The notes under the pieces were generated by a model. That model was not told the origin of the DNA, did no database searches, and was given only the letters and a program-made list of their open reading frames with translations. Shown one piece after another: positions 1-56,191 of a stretch of DNA of 59,817 nt (the stretch's first letter is position 1; every line of letters begins with the position of its first letter). A program made the position numbers and the translations under genes. This DNA is from Salinadaptatus halalkaliphilus (GTDB lineage Archaea > Halobacteriota > Halobacteria > Halobacteriales > Natrialbaceae), in assembly GCF_006543045.1 (NCBI RefSeq), contig NZ_RBZW01000027.1:1-59817 (forward strand), read 5' to 3'.

Positions 1-44
1 AGGTCGTAGAGTTCCTCAAGCGTTACCTCGTCGAGCCGACCCAT
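1..44 (-). CDS. Partial gene start, probably a haloarchaeal IS630-type transposase
   Basis: Only the first 14 or 15 codons lie in the window; the gene runs off the left edge. The readable start is MGRLDEVTLEELYDL. From memory, this resembles the beginning of haloarchaeal IS630-family transposases, whose N-terminal helix-turn-helix region opens with an M-x-x-LDE-x-x-x-EEL pattern. With so few residues the family is an inference. A 3' extension encoding an EGKKPTQR-like helix-turn-helix would confirm it. Confidence 0.4.
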   Translation of the reverse strand, partial: MGRLDEVTLEELYD

Positions 45-80
45 TACCAACCCAACTACGCCTAACAGTAAATAACTTCC

Positions 81-950
81 TTAATCACTATCAGTCGACG
101 ACTGTGGATCGGCGAACCGGTCAGAGAGGGCCGATGCAACGGATTCGACCGCCGCTGTTCGTGTTGGCCGAACCGGGACACGAAGCGGTGAGATGATAGC
201 CTTTCCCTGATCCACGGCATTTCGGTCGATGACTTCGGTTCCGTCGTTGGTGTCGTCCGTGGGGGTTTGGCTCATTGAACGGATCCGAAACGTATCGTCC
301 TCTCGGATTGCGTCCATCCGGTAGTCCGGAGATGGACGCGTTACTTCGACACCTCGAATCGGTTCGTCCGGAGCGGGAAGTGTTACCGTGAGGTAATCGA
401 TGTCGTCGAAGACGTTTTCGTCGGTCGATACCCGAATTAACGCTTCAACAAACCGACCAGCACGTTGGTAATCGGCGACCTCGAGATTACGCCTCCCCAT
501 GGTATCCATGGAGATAGCAATACCCGGTGTTCCAAGGATAGCCGCCTCCATGACGGCGCTCACTGTGCCGGATCGGGAGGCCGTGTGCTGGCCGGTGTTT
601 GGTCCCGGATTGCAGCCGCTGACCACGATATCCGGTGCTGTTTCGAGCGCGTACAGCCCACAGATTACGCACTCACAAGGCGTTCCGTCAATTACGAATC
701 CGTGTTCGTGGTCCGTATAGGGAACTTGAAAGGAGTAACTGTCCCCCGCTTCGGATACGTCGGCGTCAGCCTCGCCTATCGGATCCATCGTTCGACCGAG
801 TGAAATAGATCGGCCTGCGCCACTCATATCCGTTTGTGGGGCAACGACGCGTACCGTGCCACATTCGGTGAGCGATGTTCGAAGTGCTTCTAATCCAGGG
901 GCATCGATTCCATCGTCATTCGTTAACAGAATCGTCGGTGTCTGCGACAT
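81..950 (-). CDS. surE: 5'/3'-nucleotidase SurE
   Basis: Metal-dependent nucleoside monophosphate phosphatase of the SurE family (289 aa, usual range 250-290), expected in the cytoplasm. The metal-binding NDDG motif is at residues 11-14, after a beta strand LLT. An SGAGRSIS loop is at 43-50, SGCNPGPN (the family SGxNxGxN site) at 111-118, and SGTVSAVMEA at 127-136. All active-site blocks are in order, so the gene looks intact. The start is the ATG giving MSQTPTILLTNDDG, the usual distance from the catalytic motif. The C-terminal 25 residues are a low-complexity acidic tail typical of halophiles. It is transcribed alone, divergent from the hydrolase gene to its right. Confidence 0.93.
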   Translation of the reverse strand: MSQTPTILLTNDDGIDAPGLEALRTSLTECGTVRVVAPQTDMSGAGRSISLGRTMDPIGEADADVSEAGDSYSFQVPYTDHEHGFVIDGTPCECVICGLYALETAPDIVVSGCNPGPNTGQHTASRSGTVSAVMEAAILGTPGIAISMDTMGRRNLEVADYQRAGRFVEALIRVSTDENVFDDIDYLTVTLPAPDEPIRGVEVTRPSPDYRMDAIREDDTFRIRSMSQTPTDDTNDGTEVIDRNAVDQGKAIISPLRVPVRPTRTAAVESVASALSDRFADPQSSTDSD

Positions 951-44603: not shown

Positions 44604-44994
44604 TCTGGCTGTTAGATATACAATAGTAGGATATCGGCGGCTGGCAACGGCCGTCCCGCAACTATCGGTCCACCGATACCGGCCTCACCGACCGTACAGT
44701 CGGCCGTGATCAGGTGTGTAGTACTGCAGTGGCTCCTCTCAATCCTATGGCCCTGTTCAGTCGGCAGATCACAGGCGGTATTGCCACCCCCAGTAATAAC
44801 ACCTTCATTTGAGGGTTACATTAGTACCAGTGTAAATATGTGGAAACGGACGGGAGACGACGCACTACTGTCGTGCAGGAACTCGCGATCGCACCCCCGA
44901 ATGACACCTGCAATCGGACCGCTTCGAGCGCGACAGAGCCATCCGCTGGGAGTCAGCAGGCAGCTTTTTGAAGACTGAGAGATTACCCGAGCGT
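44604..44994. other. Intergenic stretch before the ccmC-like gene
   Basis: Nearly 400 bp with no gene. AT-rich patches near 44800-44840 (CTTCATTTGAGGGTTACATT, TGTAAATATG) may include the promoter of the ccmC-ccmD unit. A TTG at 44968 in frame with ccmC is a possible alternative start. Confidence 0.4.
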
Positions 44995-45741
44995 ATGGAT
45001 TCGTACGAGCAACGGGTGATCGGGGCCTGTCGACGGCTGTTCTCCAGTTCGATCCCCGGATATTTGACGCTAGTATTCGGTCTCGGTTCGATTGCACTGA
45101 TCTTTGGCTACGCGTCGGCATCGATGTATGGCGTGGATCACGGAATCAATCTAGTCGCGTACTGGCACGTTCCACTCGCTCTCGTTGGCGGCGTCGCCCT
45201 GACGGTAACGTTTCTGGGTTGTGTTACGTATCTGCTCACCGGCACCCGATTCTGGGAACACGTTGGGCATGCATCGGGTGAAATCGGCTTCATCTTCGCG
45301 ACGCTAACGCTGATCACGGGCAGCGCCTGGGGGCGGGTTATCTGGAACACGTGGTGGGACTGGTCCGATATCCGGCTCGTGACGTTTCTGTTCGTCTGGT
45401 TCATCTACGCCGGCTACTTGCTCATTTACTCGAGTGCCGGCGGGAGCGGGCGGGTCTCACGACTCGCATCGGTATACGGGGTCGTCGGCTTCGTGACGGT
45501 CCCGATCTCGTATGCATCGACGCGACTGTGGACGGCACGGTTACACGCCCCGTCGATCGGGAACCCGGACGCTGAGGCGGCGATTTCCGGGGAAGTCCTT
45601 TTGGTCTCGTTGCTAGCGCTCTTTTTCCTGTATCTCTACTTGCTCGGCAGTCGGGTCAGGCTCCACTCACTGGCGAGTCGTATCGACGCTGTAAAACACC
45701 GCAGGCAGAGAGAAACGTACAAACCGACGGAGGCTGAGTGA
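44995..45741 (+). CDS. ccmC: CcmC-like heme handling protein of cytochrome c maturation
   Basis: 248-aa membrane protein with six helices, of the heme-handling family. The tryptophan-rich WWD motif WGRVIWNTWWDWSDIRL is at residues 112-128. The two expected heme-ligand histidines flank it: H58 in YWHVPLALVGG and H184 in LWTARLHAPS. CcmC presents heme to CcmE on the outer face. It is followed 6 bp later by a CcmD-size gene; ccmE, ccmA/B and ccmF lie 3-10 kb further on. Confidence 0.87.
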   Translation: MDSYEQRVIGACRRLFSSSIPGYLTLVFGLGSIALIFGYASASMYGVDHGINLVAYWHVPLALVGGVALTVTFLGCVTYLLTGTRFWEHVGHASGEIGFIFATLTLITGSAWGRVIWNTWWDWSDIRLVTFLFVWFIYAGYLLIYSSAGGSGRVSRLASVYGVVGFVTVPISYASTRLWTARLHAPSIGNPDAEAAISGEVLLVSLLALFFLYLYLLGSRVRLHSLASRIDAVKHRRQRETYKPTEAE

Positions 45742-45747
45742 TTCCCC

Positions 45748-45891
45748 ATGGAATTCTTACTTCCATTCGCCTACGGAGCGATATTCCTGGCGCTGGTCGT
45801 CTACGTCTTGCATCTGCGAAGTCGTCTCGGGGAACTCGAGCAACGACTCGAGGACGTTGCGACCGAACAGCGGACGAATAGCGACGACTGA
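45748..45891 (+). CDS. ccmD: Small CcmD-like membrane protein
   Basis: 47-aa protein with one helix (residues 3-22, LLPFAYGAIFLALVVYVLHL) followed by a charged tail (RSRLGELEQRLEDVATEQRT). Size, topology and position right after ccmC match CcmD, which holds CcmC, CcmE and the CcmAB complex together. Sequence similarity in this family is weak, so position carries most of the weight. Its TGA stop is the first bases of the palindrome that follows (TGATACGG). Confidence 0.72.
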   Translation: MEFLLPFAYGAIFLALVVYVLHLRSRLGELEQRLEDVATEQRTNSDD

Positions 45892-46081: not shown

Positions 46082-47584
46082 TTACGAAATGTCGATCGAT
46101 CGATGAACCCAGCCAGTTGCACCGTCGGGGAACGGATCAGTCCGTTCTTCCGGTTGGGTCGTTCCGTCACCGTCGATATTTCGCGCGTAGACCTCGAGTT
46201 GGTCCTGTGCTGTGTCGGCTGGGTCGATCTCGAAGCGCCACTGTCGAATCGTATCGGCATCCGGCAACGGATCGCTAAGTGTGGCATCCGACCAGGTTTC
46301 GCCACCGTCGATCGAGAGTTCGACCGTCTCGATACCGCGATCGCCGGCATAGGCGTGTCCGACGAGCTGAATACGTCCGTCGGGTCGGTTGATACGGTCG
46401 ATCTTCGTGACGGCGTTTACTGGCCCCATTCCGTGCCAGCCCCGCTCCTCCCAGTAGCCGCCGGCTTCGTCGTCGATGATCTCGATTTCGGTGAGCCACT
46501 TGACCTGTAGCTTCCCCCATCGGTCGGGAACGAGTATCCGAACTGGGTAGCCGTGTGCCTCGGGTAACTCGAGGCCGTTCATGCCGTAGGCGAGCATCGA
46601 CTCCTCGAGTTGTTCGAGCGGAATCGAGTAGTAGTAGTCGTCGGCCCCGGTCACCATTGCGTACTCGCCGTTGGGTTCGGCTTCGGCCAACAGATCGCCC
46701 AGACGACAACCCGTCCAGACTGCCGCGTCGAGTTGGTCGCTCTCGATCCCGTCGCTAAGACAGCGGATCGCTTTGTATTCGTGTCTCGTCGTGTACGTTT
46801 GTACGTCGTCGTACCCGAGTTCGAGTTCGTCTTCTACGTCGCCGGTAATCGATAGTGACCACGAGGCAGTGTCGACCGTCGGCGGACTGGGATTGATGTC
46901 GACCGTAAAGAAGTCCCCGACCTCACTAACGAGCGGTTGCACGCCGTCGGCGTCTAGTTCGGCGTCTTCGGACGTGGACAGTAGATGATCGACTTCGGCG
47001 CGCGAGGCCTGTTCCTGTAGCTCCTGTTCGCTACGCCGCGTTTGATCTCGGCGGACCAGTCCCAGCGCGTGTGCGACGATATTGAACGCGGCGACAGCCG
47101 ACAGTGACGTGACGACGGCACGTCGCTCGGCGTCGACATCCGAGGGTGCTGGTACGGCGTCACTGAACCAGGTGACGATCACACCGCCGACGAGTGCTGG
47201 AAGCACCGCCGGGACGAGTTCGCCGACGATTACTGCCGTGGCCACCGCGATCGAGCCGCTCGAGACGAGAAAGCCGACGAGTGGTGCAGCAGGGGTTTCG
47301 ACACGACTGCCCACGCGGTAGCCACCGAATGCGATGGTCCCCACGACCACCGAGAGAACCACGCCGGAAAAAAGTAGACTCAACTCGAGTGCCACGTCTC
47401 CGAACCGCTGGATGATAGCCGAAATAAACCAGCCGGGCAGATACTCGAGGAGCAGGTGATTGAACGACGAAACGACGAATCGGGCCGACGTGGCGTAGAT
47501 AGCAAACGACGTCGCGACGGCCGAGATCCCAGTGGCGAGTATCGTCACGGCCGCCATCAGTCTCCGATCGGTCACGCGGACCAC
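46082..47584 (-). CDS. Membrane-anchored sulfite oxidase-type molybdopterin enzyme
   Basis: 500-aa protein. Residues 10-140 contain about four hydrophobic helices, an unusual membrane front end. Residues 225-390 form the oxidoreductase molybdopterin domain with the molybdenum-ligand cysteine C275 in YKAIRCLSDGIESD and a substrate-site block DRWGKLQVKWLTEIEI. Residues 395-500 are the Mo-co dimerisation domain (VELSIDGGETWSDATLSD). It could oxidise sulfite or act as another sulfite-oxidase-like dehydrogenase, giving electrons to a c-type cytochrome or copper protein. A GTG start is taken; an ATG at residue 10 is an alternative. Confidence 0.88.
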   Translation of the reverse strand: MVRVTDRRLMAAVTILATGISAVATSFAIYATSARFVVSSFNHLLLEYLPGWFISAIIQRFGDVALELSLLFSGVVLSVVVGTIAFGGYRVGSRVETPAAPLVGFLVSSGSIAVATAVIVGELVPAVLPALVGGVIVTWFSDAVPAPSDVDAERRAVVTSLSAVAAFNIVAHALGLVRRDQTRRSEQELQEQASRAEVDHLLSTSEDAELDADGVQPLVSEVGDFFTVDINPSPPTVDTASWSLSITGDVEDELELGYDDVQTYTTRHEYKAIRCLSDGIESDQLDAAVWTGCRLGDLLAEAEPNGEYAMVTGADDYYYSIPLEQLEESMLAYGMNGLELPEAHGYPVRILVPDRWGKLQVKWLTEIEIIDDEAGGYWEERGWHGMGPVNAVTKIDRINRPDGRIQLVGHAYAGDRGIETVELSIDGGETWSDATLSDPLPDADTIRQWRFEIDPADTAQDQLEVYARNIDGDGTTQPEERTDPFPDGATGWVHRSIDIS

Positions 47585-48612: not shown

Positions 48613-49083
48613 TCACTGCGGCGATGCGGACGGCCCGCCGTCGGCGTACTCGTCGGTCGTCGACCCACCCTCGTAGTCGTCACCATCGTAATCGGGGTGG
48701 TCGTACGACGATTCGTTTGCGTCGTCGGGATGTTCACCTTCGTGTGCGCGGACGGTGAGATCGTCGGCCGTGAGCTGGTCGCCGTCGTAGTGGCCCTCCG
48801 CAACCACGAGCCGCCCTTCGGACATCGTCTCGGGGCGCTCCCCGTCGTAGCTGACCGCCACCGTGTGGTTTTCATCGACGACGTCGAACTCGAGGTCGTC
48901 GCCGTCCTCGAGGTCGACGACCCGGCCCTCGAGCTTCACGAGATCGTCCTCGTGGTCGTCGGTTTCGACGAGATCGGTCGGCGTAACGAATTCCGCAGCT
49001 GACCCCATCGTCGTCGTCGCCAGAATCGCCAGCAGAACGACGATTCCGATACCGCCAACGACCACTTTCGTCTTCCGATCCAT
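48613..49083 (-). CDS. ccmE: CcmE-like heme chaperone with variant heme-site motif
   Basis: 156-aa protein with one N-terminal membrane anchor (residues 7-28) and an OB-fold (40-112): LVKLEGRVVDLEDGDDLEFD, VAVSYDGERPETMSEGRLVV and DGDQLTADDLTV match CcmE strands. Where bacterial CcmE has HxxxY and most archaeal CcmE has CxxxY at the heme site, this one reads VRAHEGEHPDD (111-121). H114 and H118 are the nearest candidates and the exact ligand position aligns with A113 or H114. The C-terminal tail is rich in Asp, Tyr, Gly and His. It carries heme from CcmC to CcmF. Confidence 0.84.
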   Translation of the reverse strand: MDRKTKVVVGGIGIVVLLAILATTTMGSAAEFVTPTDLVETDDHEDDLVKLEGRVVDLEDGDDLEFDVVDENHTVAVSYDGERPETMSEGRLVVAEGHYDGDQLTADDLTVRAHEGEHPDDANESSYDHPDYDGDDYEGGSTTDEYADGGPSASPQ

Positions 49084-49207: not shown

Positions 49208-49735
49208 ATGACTCTCAGCCGGCGACGGATCTGCACGCTCGGCGGCCTCATCGCGACAACCGGCCTCAGCGGCTGTCTCGGCGGTGGGGACGACGAACCG
49301 GTGGTAGAGGGGAGCGAAGAAACCGACACCGATATCGACGACTGGGCGTGGGACGGTACCCTGTCAGTCACGTCGGCTCACCAGTATCACGACCCCGACT
49401 GTGGGTGTTGTAGCGAGTACGTGGCCTACCTCCGGGCCCACGACATCGACGTCGCGGTCACGGAAGTCGACAATCTCGGCGAGGTAAAGACGGATCTCGG
49501 CGTTCCGAACGAAATTCGAAGCTGTCACACGCTCGAGCTCGAGGGGTACCTGATCGAGGGACACGTCCCACTGGAAGCGATCGACGACCTCCTCACGGAC
49601 GAGCCGGCGGTTCGGGGAATCGGGATTCCCGGCATGCCCCAGTATTCGCCGGGAATGGGGCCACGAGGTGACGAAGCGCTGCAGGTCTATGCGTTCGATG
49701 CTGGAGCCGAACCCGTCGCCTACACCACCGTTTAG
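49208..49735 (+). CDS. DUF411 metal-binding lipoprotein
   Basis: 175-aa secreted protein. The Tat-type signal SRRRICTLGG leads to lipobox LSGC with C23. The DUF411 core begins HQYHDPDCGCCSEYVAYLRA, with the CGCC metal site, and continues VPNEIRSCHTLELEGYLIEG and GIPGMPQYSPGM. Homologues bind copper or other soft metals and accompany copper resistance or cuproenzyme genes. It is convergent with the CcdA-like gene (4-base overlap). Confidence 0.85.
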   Translation: MTLSRRRICTLGGLIATTGLSGCLGGGDDEPVVEGSEETDTDIDDWAWDGTLSVTSAHQYHDPDCGCCSEYVAYLRAHDIDVAVTEVDNLGEVKTDLGVPNEIRSCHTLELEGYLIEGHVPLEAIDDLLTDEPAVRGIGIPGMPQYSPGMGPRGDEALQVYAFDAGAEPVAYTTV

Positions 49736-50412
49736 GAGAGGGCCGACAGCAGGATTCGGTCGAGTTCGAACAGCAACGCAATCCCCGTCCCCAGCAAGAT
49801 GAGGCCGACGACGCGCCGGACCGCGTCACCGCGCCCGAGAATACCGACTCGAGTGGCGATCGATCGCCCCGTGATCGTTCCACCGTAGGCCACACCGAGC
49901 AGCGGCACGGAAAAGCCAAGCCCGTAGACGAACAGGAACACGCCACTCTCGAGTGCCGTCCCCGCAGTCGCCGCGTACGCGAGTACCGCCCCGAGCACCG
50001 GGCCGACACAGGGGAGCCAGATGACGCCGAGTAGCGTGCCAAGCGAGAACGCCGAGGCGAGCGGTCGATCGCCCTCGTCGAAAATCGATGCCTGACGGCT
50101 GGCGACACTCGAGAGACGGGAGGCGGCGTTCGAGTACGTTCGGTGGAGGTCGTCGTCGACCATCACGGCACCGAACGCAGCGATCGCGAGAAACGCCGGC
50201 GCACGGAGCGTTTCGGGGGAGAACGAGGTCACTGATCCCACCAAGACGCCGAGTGCGGTAAACGAGAGAAGACTCCCTGAGACGATTGCGATGGGGCGAA
50301 ATCGATGCCCGACGCTCCCCGACAGCAACGGCGGGAGCACGGGGAGACAACACGGCGTCAGTATCGTCGCCATCCCGGCGACGAACACCACGGATAGCGT
50401 CGGAATTTCCAT
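49732..50412 (-). CDS. ccdA: CcdA/DsbD-type transmembrane electron carrier (second copy)
   Basis: 226-aa six-helix membrane protein. Its redox cysteines are in TILTPCCLPVLPPLLSGSVG (C21 or C22) and VIWLPCVGPVLGAVLAYAAT (near 122). The double cysteine CC in the first half is unusual. It would feed reductant to the extracytoplasmic thioredoxin encoded beside ccmF. Only 16% or so of the residues obviously match the first CcdA, so they are separate lineages. The ATG at 50412 is chosen because it directly precedes the first helix; it diverges from ccmA. Confidence 0.84.
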   Translation of the reverse strand: MEIPTLSVVFVAGMATILTPCCLPVLPPLLSGSVGHRFRPIAIVSGSLLSFTALGVLVGSVTSFSPETLRAPAFLAIAAFGAVMVDDDLHRTYSNAASRLSSVASRQASIFDEGDRPLASAFSLGTLLGVIWLPCVGPVLGAVLAYAATAGTALESGVFLFVYGLGFSVPLLGVAYGGTITGRSIATRVGILGRGDAVRRVVGLILLGTGIALLFELDRILLSALS

Positions 50413-50468
50413 TACGTGGGCGTTGGGAATTACAACGCTTAAGTCATACGTCCGCCAACGAGTGATCG

Positions 50469-51209
50469 ATGTCACTCGTTTCTGTCGACGGCGTCTCGAA
50501 ACACTTCGGGACCCACGTCGGTGTGAACGACATCTCTTTCGACCTCGAGACAGGCGAGACCGCGGTCGTGGTCGGCGCAAACGGTGCCGGAAAGTCGACG
50601 CTCATTCGCCTGCTCGCGTCACTGTCTCGGCCGACGAGCGGCCGCCTCGAGCTCGACGGCACGTCCCTGACCGACGGCAACGCTGCGGTTCGCGCTCGCC
50701 TCGGCGTCGTGACGCACGCGACGATGCTGTACGACGAACTGACGGCCCGGGAAAATCTCCGTCTCCACGCCCGTCTCCACGGCGTCGATCCGAAGCGGTG
50801 CGAGCAGCTCTTAGAGACCGTCGGCCTCGCCGAGCGCGGGGGCGAACGGGTCGCCGGCTTCTCGCATGGGATGAGCAAACGCGTCTCGCTCGCACGCGCA
50901 CTCGTCCACGATCCCGATCTCTTGCTGTTCGACGAGCCTTACACGGGGCTCGATCAAACCTCGCTGCGACGAATCACGTCCGTACTCGAGGGGATCGACG
51001 ACCGGACGGTGCTCGTCTCGACGCACGATCTGGCACGCGGGTTCGAGCTTGCGGATCGCCTGCTGTTTCTAAACGACGGACGGCTGGTCGGCGATCTCGA
51101 GGCGCGGGCGGTCGACGATGTCGAAGACGTCCTCGAGGCGTACGAGACGCGCTGTCGTGGTCGACCCGGCGAGAATCAGCCCGCGGATCGAACTGGGATC
51201 CACCGATGA
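50469..51209 (+). CDS. ccmA: CcmA-like ABC transporter ATPase of cytochrome c maturation
   Basis: 246-aa ATPase with Walker A GANGAGKST near residue 38, a CcmA-like signature FSHGMSKRVSLARAL near 132, and Walker B LLLFDEPYTGLD near 155. ATP use by CcmAB frees holo-CcmE from CcmC. It overlaps ccmB by 4 bases (ATGA), which fixes the pairing and the assignment. Confidence 0.87.
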   Translation: MSLVSVDGVSKHFGTHVGVNDISFDLETGETAVVVGANGAGKSTLIRLLASLSRPTSGRLELDGTSLTDGNAAVRARLGVVTHATMLYDELTARENLRLHARLHGVDPKRCEQLLETVGLAERGGERVAGFSHGMSKRVSLARALVHDPDLLLFDEPYTGLDQTSLRRITSVLEGIDDRTVLVSTHDLARGFELADRLLFLNDGRLVGDLEARAVDDVEDVLEAYETRCRGRPGENQPADRTGIHR

Positions 51210-51883
51210 ACCGCCGGTATCTCCGAGCCGTCTACGAGGTTGCACGGAAAGACCTCGTCGTCGAATCCCGGAGCAAACAGACGATCAACGCCGCGTTCGT
51301 CTTCTCGTTGCTCATTATCGTGGTGTTCTCGTTCGTCTTCGGCGAGCAGGTCGGCCAGCGGGAGGTGCTCGCGAGAGGCGCGCTCTGGCTCGCCGTCGTC
51401 TTCGGCGGTGCCGTCGGCATGAGCCACGCCGTCGCACAGGAAGGCAGAAACGAAGCGCTCGATGGGTTGTTGCTCGCGCCGGTCGATCGGTCCGCGATCT
51501 ACCTCGGCAAAGTCGTGAGTTCGACGCTTTTTATCGCCGGAATCGCACTGTTGAGCCTCGCCTTCGTCGTCGTCTTTCTGGATTACGCCCTCGAGCTCGA
51601 GTCGCTGTGGCCAATTCTCGGCGTCATTCTGCTCGCAGCGGTCGGGTTCAGTGCCGTCGGGGTGTTGCTCTCGATTCTCATGTTACACTCCCAACTGCAG
51701 GAATCGTTGTTGCCAGTGTTGCTCGTGCCACTCGTCGTTCCGATCATCCTCGCAGGGACGGCGTTGACCCAGCCGGACCTCTCCGATGGGATGACCGCCG
51801 CGTGGTTTCGGATTTTGCTCACCTACGACGCGCTCGTCCTCGTGGCCGGGTGGATGACATTCGAGTACGTCGTCGAGGAATAA
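51206..51883 (+). CDS. ccmB: CcmB-like ABC transporter permease of cytochrome c maturation
   Basis: 225-aa membrane protein with six helices and no large loops, matching CcmB length (about 220). The N-terminus AVYEVARKDLVVESRSKQTI and the block GRNEALDGLLLAPVDRSAIY, YLGKVVSSTLF are typical. It is convergent with ccmF, 36 bp away. Confidence 0.88.
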   Translation: MNRRYLRAVYEVARKDLVVESRSKQTINAAFVFSLLIIVVFSFVFGEQVGQREVLARGALWLAVVFGGAVGMSHAVAQEGRNEALDGLLLAPVDRSAIYLGKVVSSTLFIAGIALLSLAFVVVFLDYALELESLWPILGVILLAAVGFSAVGVLLSILMLHSQLQESLLPVLLVPLVVPIILAGTALTQPDLSDGMTAAWFRILLTYDALVLVAGWMTFEYVVEE

Positions 51884-51919: not shown

Positions 51920-54262
51920 CTATCCGTCTTGCAATCGCGTATCGGCGACGGTGACGGCGGTGAGTCCGGCGAGCATCATGGCGACGCCGAGCCAGATCTG
52001 GTTCGCGAGCGGATACGTATCGATCGACACCGATGCGCCGCCCTCGGTGATCGAGCCGACGACGTAGGTGTCGCCGGTCACGCCGCGTTCGATGACGGCG
52101 TCGTTGGTGTTCATCTCCGAGCGGAGATACTCCTGTTCGGCGATGGTTCCCGTGGCAACTCGGTCGTCGCCGTCGTAGACATCGATATCGACTTCGTGGG
52201 AGATCACACGCGGCGTGTGGACGTCCCGCGGCGGGTCGTCGATGGTCCCCGCGTTCTCGCTGTCGGTGTAGACGTAGGCTGTCGCGTCGTCTGCAGCCGT
52301 GTCGTCGCCAAAGACCGTCCCGCGGGCGATGACCTCCGTACCGACCTCGAACGGAACGTCGTCGTCGACACTGGCGAGCCACACGTCACTGCCATCGAGT
52401 TGTGCGACGGCCGTCCCCTCTATCGTTTCCGTCTGGGTTATCTCACCGCTGACGATCGATGCCTCTTCGTGTACCTCGAGTACTTCGGCGGGCGTCCGGG
52501 CGGCCTCCTCGATCGTCGGTTCTTCGACGGTGTCGTAGTTGGTTACGGCGACGGTGTACTCGGAGTCCGGCACCTCCTCGACGATCGGTTCCGGATCGTT
52601 CTCGGCGTCGTCGAGGCCGACGATCGTCACCGAGGCTGCCGTCGAGAAGAGATAGACGAACGAGATAGCCACGATCAACAGAGCACCACCGACGTGAACG
52701 AGGACGATACCCGTCTCTCGGAGCTGGAACGCTCGATCGGGGACGCCCCGAACTCGCGACACGTACCGTGCGATCCAGGCCGAGGCGAAAAAGACGGCGG
52801 GGGGAACGATCGAGAGCACGCTCAGGTTCCCGACGAGTCGATAGACGAGCGGATCGTGTGCGCTCGGATCGCTCAGATACCACTGCGAGGACGGCGCGAC
52901 GAACGCCGCAAGGATCGTCGCGATAGCCACGATTGCCGTCGTACAGATCGCCAGCCGTCGGCGGCGCAGATCAAGCAGCGCGTACAACCCGCCAGCGAGC
53001 AGTCCGAAGACGACGACGGGGTAGCTCCACAGGTTGTAGTGGTCCTGTCCGACGCTGACCTCGACGCCCGTCGCCGCGTTCCGAAGGACCGGAAAGGACA
53101 GCCCCCAGATCGAAATGAACGCGAGGACGGCAAAGGAGAGGACGGCACCGTGATAGACGGTTCGGCGCGTGATCCAGGCATCGTCACTCGAGCGAGTGGT
53201 TGTCTCGTCGGCCTCGAGCAGCCAGTAAAGTACCGGCAACGCGATGGCGGCGGTCCCGGTCACGGCGAGCAAAAAGAGGACGCCGGTCCCGATACCACCA
53301 GCCGCGAACGAGTGGACGCTCCGGAAGACGCCGCTTCGGACCACCGTCGTCGCGAAAATGACGAGCGGGAACGCGAGTGCCGCGGCGGCTGGCGCGAAGA
53401 TTGGATACTCTCCGGTTTTCCCGTATCGATTGATCGCGTGCAACGTCGCCGTCAGTGCGAGCCACGGGATCAGAACGGCGGTTTCGACGGGGTCCCACGA
53501 CCAGAACCCGCCCCATCCCAGCACGCCGTAGGCCCAGATACCGCCGAAGACGATGGCGGCAGTAAGCAACAACCAGGAGACGCGCAGCCACTGGACCATA
53601 CTCTCGAGCCACTCGTCGAAGACGCTCGCTTCACCTCGAAACAGCGACACGAAGTGAGTGATCCCGAGGGCGAACGGGACGATCAACAGCGCGTAGGAGG
53701 CGAACGTGATCGGTGGATGGATCGCCATCCAGGGATCGATCAACAGGGGATTGATCCCGTCGCCATCCGGCGGGACGAAGCCGGCTGGCGTGTCCGGAAA
53801 CGCGGCCTCGATAGGTGTAAACGGGCTCTGTGAGACCAACATCGTCGCAAAGACAGCGACGATACCGAGCGATATCGCCTGGACGAGACGCGACCCGCGA
53901 CCCTGGAACCGACTCGAGTAGACGGTCCAAGTTGCGACGATGGCAGTGAGTGTCGCCCACAGCAAGATCGAGCCCTCGTGGTTAGCGTAAACACCAGTGA
54001 GACGATACAGCAGGGAGAGGTAGTCCGCGGAGTTTTCCCACACGTAGGCGTAGGTGTAATCGCCGACCACGAACAGATAGGTGAGATAGCTGTGTGCAAC
54101 GACCAGTGCGAGCGTCGACACGCCAGAAGCGCCGAGAATGAGATGTCGAAACTCGTCAGTTCGGGTCAGGTAACTATACAGCAACAACACTCCCGCAACG
54201 CTGCTCGCAAACGCAGCAATAGCGATGAGAAGGGTTCCAACGGTTAGGGTGTCCGGTATCAT
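51920..54262 (-). CDS. ccmF: CcmF-like heme lyase of cytochrome c maturation
   Basis: 780-aa membrane protein, longer than bacterial CcmF (about 650). ANHEGSILLW is at 93-102, DPWMAIHPPITFASY with a heme-ligand histidine at 176-190, and the WWD motif GWGGFWSWDPVETAVLIPWL at 249-268. It attaches heme carried by CcmE to apocytochrome CxxCH sites. Between the last two membrane helices there is a long extracytoplasmic domain (about 550-750); residues 590-670 read like a small beta barrel (EGTAVAQLDGSDVWLASVDD, VGTEVIARGTVFGDD). It overlaps the thioredoxin gene upstream by 4 bases. Confidence 0.9.
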   Translation of the reverse strand: MIPDTLTVGTLLIAIAAFASSVAGVLLLYSYLTRTDEFRHLILGASGVSTLALVVAHSYLTYLFVVGDYTYAYVWENSADYLSLLYRLTGVYANHEGSILLWATLTAIVATWTVYSSRFQGRGSRLVQAISLGIVAVFATMLVSQSPFTPIEAAFPDTPAGFVPPDGDGINPLLIDPWMAIHPPITFASYALLIVPFALGITHFVSLFRGEASVFDEWLESMVQWLRVSWLLLTAAIVFGGIWAYGVLGWGGFWSWDPVETAVLIPWLALTATLHAINRYGKTGEYPIFAPAAAALAFPLVIFATTVVRSGVFRSVHSFAAGGIGTGVLFLLAVTGTAAIALPVLYWLLEADETTTRSSDDAWITRRTVYHGAVLSFAVLAFISIWGLSFPVLRNAATGVEVSVGQDHYNLWSYPVVVFGLLAGGLYALLDLRRRRLAICTTAIVAIATILAAFVAPSSQWYLSDPSAHDPLVYRLVGNLSVLSIVPPAVFFASAWIARYVSRVRGVPDRAFQLRETGIVLVHVGGALLIVAISFVYLFSTAASVTIVGLDDAENDPEPIVEEVPDSEYTVAVTNYDTVEEPTIEEAARTPAEVLEVHEEASIVSGEITQTETIEGTAVAQLDGSDVWLASVDDDVPFEVGTEVIARGTVFGDDTAADDATAYVYTDSENAGTIDDPPRDVHTPRVISHEVDIDVYDGDDRVATGTIAEQEYLRSEMNTNDAVIERGVTGDTYVVGSITEGGASVSIDTYPLANQIWLGVAMMLAGLTAVTVADTRLQDG

Positions 54263-54729
54263 TGATTTGTCGTCGAATCGAGTCCGTTCTCAAGTTCCTC
54301 GAGGAACCGATCACGCTCGACGTAGCCGCCGAGTTCCGAAATCGGTTCTTCATCGGCGGTCATCAACACGTGTTGGGGCGGGTAACTCGCACCGTGGTCC
54401 TGTGCCAGGCCCATTCCCGGGCCAGGGTCGTCGAGGTTGATCGCGAGCAAGACGTATTCCTCGAGTGCGTCACGCACGTCGTCGTCCTGGTAGTGGTCGT
54501 CCTCGTACTGCTGACAGTACGTACACCACGTCGTCCAGTAGTAGACGAGGACCGGTTTGTCGGCTTGCTCGGCGACCTCGAGGGCCTCGTCAGGATCCTC
54601 GTGCCACTCGATACCCCCCTGATAGGTGTAGTCGTGGTCGCTCAACACCGGTGCCGCCTGCATCGAGTAGTAGCCAAATCCAAGGACGGCTAGCAGAACG
54701 ACTATCGTCAGGAGCTTCCGCGGAGTCAT
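54259..54729 (-). CDS. Membrane-anchored thioredoxin (CcmG/CcmH-like role)
   Basis: 156-aa protein with an N-terminal anchor (residues 5-25) and a thioredoxin fold whose redox site is CTYC at 69-72 (VLVYYWTTWCTYCQQYEDDH). The cis-proline block is ASYPPQHVLMTADEEPISEL. It belongs to the DsbD-gamma/thioredoxin_7 type and is expected to keep apocytochrome cysteines reduced. It sits between the cytochrome c peroxidase and ccmF genes, overlapping ccmF. Confidence 0.87.
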   Translation of the reverse strand: MTPRKLLTIVVLLAVLGFGYYSMQAAPVLSDHDYTYQGGIEWHEDPDEALEVAEQADKPVLVYYWTTWCTYCQQYEDDHYQDDDVRDALEEYVLLAINLDDPGPGMGLAQDHGASYPPQHVLMTADEEPISELGGYVERDRFLEELENGLDSTTNQ

Positions 54730-54805: not shown

Positions 54806-56191
54806 CTAGTCGTTCCGGCGACGACTGTAGCCGATGAGGGCAGTCGCCGTCACGAGTGCGATCGCGACGACCGCGCCACCGAAGGTGAGCCCGGGGATCG
54901 TGTCGTCGCCGTCGTCCGTGTCGCCTGTGTCGTCGACGCCGTTGTCGTCCGCTGGCTCTTCTTCGATGTCCTGCAGGTCACCGTCTGCATCCATCGGGAT
55001 CATCGATTCGCCGCTCGGGTTCGGCAGTCGAGGCATCTCCTGATCGGGATACTCGCCGGTCAGGGTCGTCATGAACGCGGCAATGTCCTCGACTTCGTCA
55101 TCGGATGGCTCCTCGTCGAGTTGACAGGCCGCCATCACGCGGATCGACTCCTCGAGCGTCGGCACCTGGCCCGTATGCATGTATGGAGCAGTGTGTTCGA
55201 CGTTACGAAGGGTTGGAACCTTGTAGGAGTATTCGTCGGCCTCGTCGTCAGTGACGCCCATTCGGCCCGGGTTCTCCATCAGGTCGTACTCCTCGACGTA
55301 CTCCTGACACTGGGCGTTATCCTCGAACGTTGGGTGGGGCTGGTAGAAGCCCTCACCGGATTCGGGTTCGTCCCACTGCCCGCTGAACATCGGTCCGGAG
55401 TGACAGCTCTGACAGCCAAGTTCCTGGAAGGACTCCATGCCGTCGAGTTCCTGCTCGGAGAGCGCGTCTTCGTCACCCTCGACGTACTGGTCGTACGGAC
55501 TATCCGGGGTCACGAGCGTGCGTTCGTAGGCCGCGATCGCGTCGACGGTGTGCTCGAGTGTGACGAGATCCTCGGGGTCGTCGCTGTCGACCTCGTCACC
55601 GTAGACCGCCTCGTACTGCTCGACGTAGCCATCGACCGCACGGACGCGGTCGAGTGCGGCCTCGTGGTCGGGCATGCCCATCTCGACGTCAGCGACGATC
55701 GGGCCTTCGGCCTGTTCGGCGAGCGTGTCGGCGCGACCGTCCCAGAACTGGGTATGGTGGAATCCGGAGTTCCAGACCGTCGGCGACGAGACCGGACCGG
55801 TCTGGCCGTGGACACCCATCGCCGTCGGACGGCTGTCGTCACCGCCTTCCATCACGTTGTGACAGGTATTACACGAGATCGTTCCCGTTTCGGAAATACG
55901 CGGATCGAAATAGAGTTGCTCACCGAGTTCGATCTTTTCCTCGGTGTCATCTTCCCGTTGTATGTATTCGTATCCAGGATGCGATTCCTCAGTCGGTGGC
56001 TCGACTGGAAGGTCGTCAGTGTCGGCGTCCGTCTCGTTGTTCTCCTGGACGTTCAAGACGGTATCACCGCTTCCCACCGATTCGACTTCCTCGCCAGCTG
56101 CTGTCTCTGCCGCGGAGGCGGCCCCTGTAGCAACGAGTACTAGGAGACAAACTCCAGCGCTAAGCAGCAGTATTCGCTGAGCTCTTCCCAT
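54806..56191 (-). CDS. Di-heme cytochrome c peroxidase / MauG-type protein with C-terminal anchor
   Basis: 461-aa secreted protein. A signal peptide covers residues 1-28. Two c-type heme sites are CNTCH (107-111) and CQSCH (260-264), as in CcpA/MauG. ELGEQLYFDPRISETGTISC and DGRADTLAEQAEGPI are typical peroxidase blocks. An acidic Asp/Asn/Gly/Thr linker (about 405-430) leads to DTIPGLTFGGAVVAIALVTA and a terminal RRR, resembling a PGF-CTERM archaeosortase sorting signal. It is the only clear c-type cytochrome in the window and the likely client of the Ccm genes, and is probably co-transcribed with the thioredoxin gene and ccmF. Confidence 0.9.
   Translation of the reverse strand: MGRAQRILLLSAGVCLLVLVATGAASAAETAAGEEVESVGSGDTVLNVQENNETDADTDDLPVEPPTEESHPGYEYIQREDDTEEKIELGEQLYFDPRISETGTISCNTCHNVMEGGDDSRPTAMGVHGQTGPVSSPTVWNSGFHHTQFWDGRADTLAEQAEGPIVADVEMGMPDHEAALDRVRAVDGYVEQYEAVYGDEVDSDDPEDLVTLEHTVDAIAAYERTLVTPDSPYDQYVEGDEDALSEQELDGMESFQELGCQSCHSGPMFSGQWDEPESGEGFYQPHPTFEDNAQCQEYVEEYDLMENPGRMGVTDDEADEYSYKVPTLRNVEHTAPYMHTGQVPTLEESIRVMAACQLDEEPSDDEVEDIAAFMTTLTGEYPDQEMPRLPNPSGESMIPMDADGDLQDIEEEPADDNGVDDTGDTDDGDDTIPGLTFGGAVVAIALVTATALIGYSRRRND

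Follow-up and report, generated by a model that had tools for sequence, protein, structure and literature searches.

A haloarchaeal CcmE with neither HxxxY nor CxxxY at the heme site keeps one invariant histidine, a candidate heme ligand, one residue further on

CcmE has been regarded as having a one-of-a-kind heme-histidine bond at a set position. An HxxxHxxxH pattern was reportedly noted in the CcmE of two halobacteria in the abstract of Allen et al. 2006; in the papers that we searched by text for this pattern, or for HxxxH in connection with CcmE, there was no match. The bacterial type of CcmE (System I; E. coli, structures 1SR3 and 8ce8) carries HxxxY, and the type of archaea and Desulfovibrio (System I*, 2KCT) carries CxxxY. 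All archaeal CcmE considered by Stevens 2011 had the Cys (PMC3601427), and a 2022 M. acetivorans paper gives archaeal CcmE as universally CXXXY, its figure legend saying almost all (PMC9084895). The haloarchaeal exception is thus probably already on record but overlooked; the present work narrows it to a single invariant His and adds the intact partner proteins and the lineage of the C-terminal tail.

The window studied here, a stretch of 59,817 nucleotides from Salinadaptatus halalkaliphilus, contains a complete ccm cluster (Table 1): ccmA, ccmB, ccmC and ccmF and the ccdA-like and thioredoxin-like genes accompany ccmE, the company in which a member of the CcmE family is expected. The CcmE translation, read from 49083 down to 48613, contains no Cys at all, and its residues 31-115 match the Pfam family at 48.6 bits against a curated cut-off of 24.6. 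A whole-genome search found one intact copy in the 4.5-Mb genome, which rules out a decaying or second CcmE.

Table 1. Features of the ccm cluster and of the ccmE gene, in window coordinates
Feature	Position	Strand	Basis or remark
ccmC	44968..45741	+	PF01578; H60/H184 and WWD equivalents kept
47-aa single-helix ORF after ccmC, CcmD-like by position	45748..45891	+	sequence; annotated CcmD counterparts
ccmE, haloarchaeal type	48613..49083	-	156 aa; PF03100 E 1.1e-12; sole CcmE in genome
N-terminal membrane anchor of CcmE, residues 7-27	49003..49065	-	hydrophobic stretch in translation, by inspection
OB-fold core of CcmE, residues 31-111	48751..48993	-	Pfam match 31-115; predicted strands stop at 111; matches 1SR3, 2KCT, 8ce8_E
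Codon of A113, column of E. coli H130 and archaeal Cys	48745..48747	-	alignments
Codon of H114, invariant, proposed heme ligand	48742..48744	-	46/46 haloarchaeal sequences
Codon of H118, not conserved	48730..48732	-	12/46
Acidic His/Tyr-rich tail of CcmE, residues 115-156	48616..48741	-	specific to MauG-linked clade
ccdA-like DsbD_TM protein, start codon uncertain	49732..50580	-	PF02683
ccmA-like ABC ATPase	50469..51209	+	
ccmB	51197..51883	+	PF03379 E 1.1e-20
ccmF, 780 aa	51920..54262	-	H173/H261/H303/H491 equivalents kept
Thioredoxin-like, CcmG-like protein	54259..54729	-	
MauG-type diheme cytochrome c, likely substrate	54806..56191	-	PF03150 E 2.2e-54, two CxxCH

This CcmE shares the OB fold with both described types and the N-terminal anchor with the bacterial one, but its heme site departs from both, as an earlier note on this DNA had proposed from the letters VRAHEGEHPDD, which the translation confirms. 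The note had placed A113 in the ligand column of CxxxY, and this placement stands: four MAFFT strategies, hhalign and a HMMER profile alignment to the PDB structures of CcmE all set A113 against H130 of E. coli, the Cys of CPSKY in archaea, or both, and H114 follows one residue C-terminal of that column in each of these sequence alignments. Position +4 from the His, where HxxxY would call for Tyr or Phe, is occupied by H118. A structure model of modest quality, built from two sequences only (mean pLDDT 53, core about 70-77, tail unmodelled), has 8ce8_E and 2KCT among its best Foldseek hits; the VIA-align spans 27..113 on 1SR3 30..130 and 40..116 on 2KCT 46..130 both fit the A113 register, while the span 32..116 on 8ce8_E 35..134 differs in its end register and is ambiguous. 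The OB fold itself is identified by the profile match to CcmE structures, with VIA Z-scores of 9.5-10.4 that unrelated OB folds nevertheless equal. The last predicted strand of this modest-confidence model ends at residue 111, so H114 would be placed, like H130, where the flexible tail begins. Alternatively, a one-residue gap would put H114 on H130, a reading suggested by the Glu/Asp and, often, the Pro 5-6 residues on that come after the His, as they do in bacteria; the Tyr is missing under either register. The bacterial sites compared read HDENY and HDEKY, and Deinococcus has HSEEY with its Glu one residue later; the acidic residue after the haloarchaeal His resembles bacterial H-D/E, unlike the C-P of archaea.

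These features extend across the haloarchaea. We assembled 46 distinct CcmE sequences from whole genomes and from Natronorubrum bangense, the only addition from a scan of genome contigs. H114 is invariant in all of them and is the sole conserved His, no other His column reaching 50%; the core identity has a median of 55% and a minimum of 36%, and invariance over a tree spanning about 26 substitutions per site (a quick tree, indicative only) is not chance. V111-R112-A113-H114 is conserved as a block, with Arg at 112 in 45/46, Ala at 113 in 45 and Ser in one, and Glu or Asp directly after H114 in 45/46, whereas the residue at His+4 is E, H, G, D, K, R or absent. We looked among the 46 homologues for a Cys or Tyr that is conserved and could act as ligand instead, named by the earlier note as the finding that would contradict it, and found none near the site: no sequence has a Cys within residues 30-115, and the only near-invariant Tyr, Y79 (44/46), is far from the heme site in sequence. 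CPSKY is absent from all haloarchaeal CcmE examined, whereas all 50 non-haloarchaeal CcmE examined from the same phylum, to which most of the archaeal CxxxY members examined belong, have the Cys at the site, mostly as CPSKY.

We consider it fairly probable that haloarchaea have a third type of CcmE, in which heme would be bound covalently to a His shifted by one residue, H114, without a Tyr ligand. CcmC would load exported heme onto CcmE, with H114, where the flexible tail begins, as the ligand; as in bacteria, the bond would probably involve a heme vinyl, and in most members nothing would replace the Tyr. CcmE would then pass the heme to CcmF, where it would be attached to CxxCH proteins (MauG in this genome). 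The sequence, its register, its conservation and the gene content of the cluster are observed directly, and from them we infer the covalency, the bonding atom and the order of transfer. Heme in E. coli CcmE is on H130 of the flexible tail and makes contacts with that tail only, the folded core offering no site for it (PMC6204919), which makes a one-residue shift plausible: by analogy, a tail His one position later could plausibly come within range of the vinyl group that CcmC holds. Two observations count against the proposal. E. coli Tyr134, a nearly invariant residue, contributes to efficient formation of holo-CcmE, although it is not essential (PMC6204919), and the systems examined did not accept a His/Cys swap at this position (PMC3601427, PMC9084895), a constraint that may limit how freely the site can vary.

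Conservation alone cannot tell a covalent from an axial role of H114, and the main rival, next after the covalent H114 adduct, is a non-covalent carrier: with Ala (or Ser) in the bonding column of all 46 proteins no adduct would form, and H114 would serve as axial ligand while heme passes briefly from CcmC to CcmF. This is not without parallel, as a review describes non-covalent binding of ferric heme by D. vulgaris CcmE via C127 (PMC3884852), but we regard it as doubtful, given the bacterial-like invariant His followed by Glu/Asp and given that the Cys of M. acetivorans CcmE is required both for covalent heme and for holocytochromes (PMC9084895). The earlier note had left the choice between a shifted His and non-covalent binding; of the two, the shifted His is the best candidate. 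That H114 is instead kept for a non-heme reason, for example an interface with CcmC or CcmF, with the heme held elsewhere, appears very improbable: Y79 and the V111-H114 block are conserved too, but H114 directly adjoins the established ligand column and no other His or Cys is conserved.

The earlier note had also proposed an HxxxH pattern formed by H114 and H118, and its suggested check, a haloarchaeal alignment, upholds only the first of the two: H118 is present in 12 of the 46 sequences, and HxxxH is rejected as a conserved motif. The 12 proteins belong to the 15 whose ccm islands are linked to MauG, and some have a third His at +8; the full HxxxHxxxH is confined to close relatives, as in HEGEHPDDH, which fits the pattern reported for two halobacteria of the same organism group, although wider sampling leaves one invariant His. 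In the protein of the window, residue 122 is Ala and the three-His spacing is broken. A working HxxxH or HxxxHxxxH motif, in which H118 and, where present, the third His would replace Tyr as axial ligand, gains some credit from the C-terminal His6 tag that interacts with the heme of E. coli CcmE and speeds its attachment (PMC6204919), but it is improbable with H118 absent in 34/46 and could hold as a subclade feature only.

Similarly, the His-, Tyr- and Asp-rich tail that had been offered as a source of axial ligands cannot be a general one, because 25 of the 46 proteins have no His, Tyr or Cys beyond H114; one ends HEQ-stop, so that nothing past the next two residues is needed in that protein. 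The long tail marks one subclade, whose ccm island contains a MauG-type cytochrome: the tails of MauG-linked CcmE have 25-62 residues with His and, usually, Tyr in every member, whereas all others have 2-20 residues and nearly always lack both. The two tail types are split perfectly by MauG linkage (Mann-Whitney p 4e-8 for tail length, a p-value that counts relatives and not independent cases). In a tree built without the trait columns, however, the MauG group is a single clade (96/88) and the trait a single change. Repeated co-evolution of tail and MauG is thereby rejected; the association rests on one evolutionary event, and the tail therefore marks a cluster lineage, as one event cannot prove a functional link. 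A combined reading, in which haloarchaeal CcmE carries heme without a covalent bond and the added tail of this one lineage supplies heme ligands along with the MauG-type diheme cytochrome, seems rather unlikely.

The departure is confined to the CcmE site, as judged from the partner sequences. CcmC and CcmF were found in 41/41 haloarchaeal genomes with CcmE and in 0/24 without it (first search). The laboratory species Haloferax volcanii is reported to be without ccm genes (PMC4429474). Equivalents of H60, H184 and the WWD Trp residues of CcmC are kept in 24/24 (21/24 for one Trp), and those of H173, H261, H303 and H491 of CcmF in 35/35. Because these ligand histidines are kept and both proteins are always present, the haloarchaeal cytochrome c maturation pathway looks functional. 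CcmH (PF03918) occurs in 0/41 CcmE genomes, with controls detected, a difference from bacterial System I and a likeness to System I*, of which its absence is not strictly characteristic (PMC3601427). As to substrates, MauG-type cytochromes are encoded in 15/41 genomes and TsdA/SoxA-like ones in 26, with one genome counted in both groups; 40/41 have a MauG- or TsdA-like cytochrome c, and the remaining genome has multiheme cytochromes beside its ccm genes.

In a tree with His-type and Cys-type CcmE, the haloarchaeal proteins form one separate branch (99/95) beside both. The alignment is short, and the tree has long branches and is unrooted; descent from CPSKY archaea is supported neither way by such a tree. 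With a whole archaeal class departing from CxxxY, it becomes directly testable whether moving heme requires the covalent adduct, a precise position for it and the Tyr ligand, or no more than a reactive residue on a flexible tail. Screens based on H/CxxxY would misjudge the haloarchaeal systems.

The genomes also yielded several minor observations. The cytochrome ORFs adjoining the ccm cluster of the exceptional genome (G347; L044, L179) have four and two CxxCH motifs, and its CcmE is the most divergent, ending VKSHEQ; a 2015 survey reported none of the multiheme kind from haloarchaea. The genome with both cytochrome types (G037) has two CcmF genes and a single CcmE match, which suggests that one CcmE may serve two CcmF. 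The 47-aa ORF after ccmC gave no Pfam CcmD match, and annotated CcmD family proteins lie at this position, directly after ccmC, in N. bangense and H. noricense; archaea are said to be without CcmD. Inside the cluster of the window are also a DUF411 protein (49208-49735, plus strand) and a molybdopterin oxidoreductase (46082-47584, minus strand), the latter adjoining ccmE in N. bangense as well. The plasmid ccm island of N. bangense (L147, 13630-17101) includes annotated hemE, hemH and hemG, placing heme synthesis beside heme attachment.
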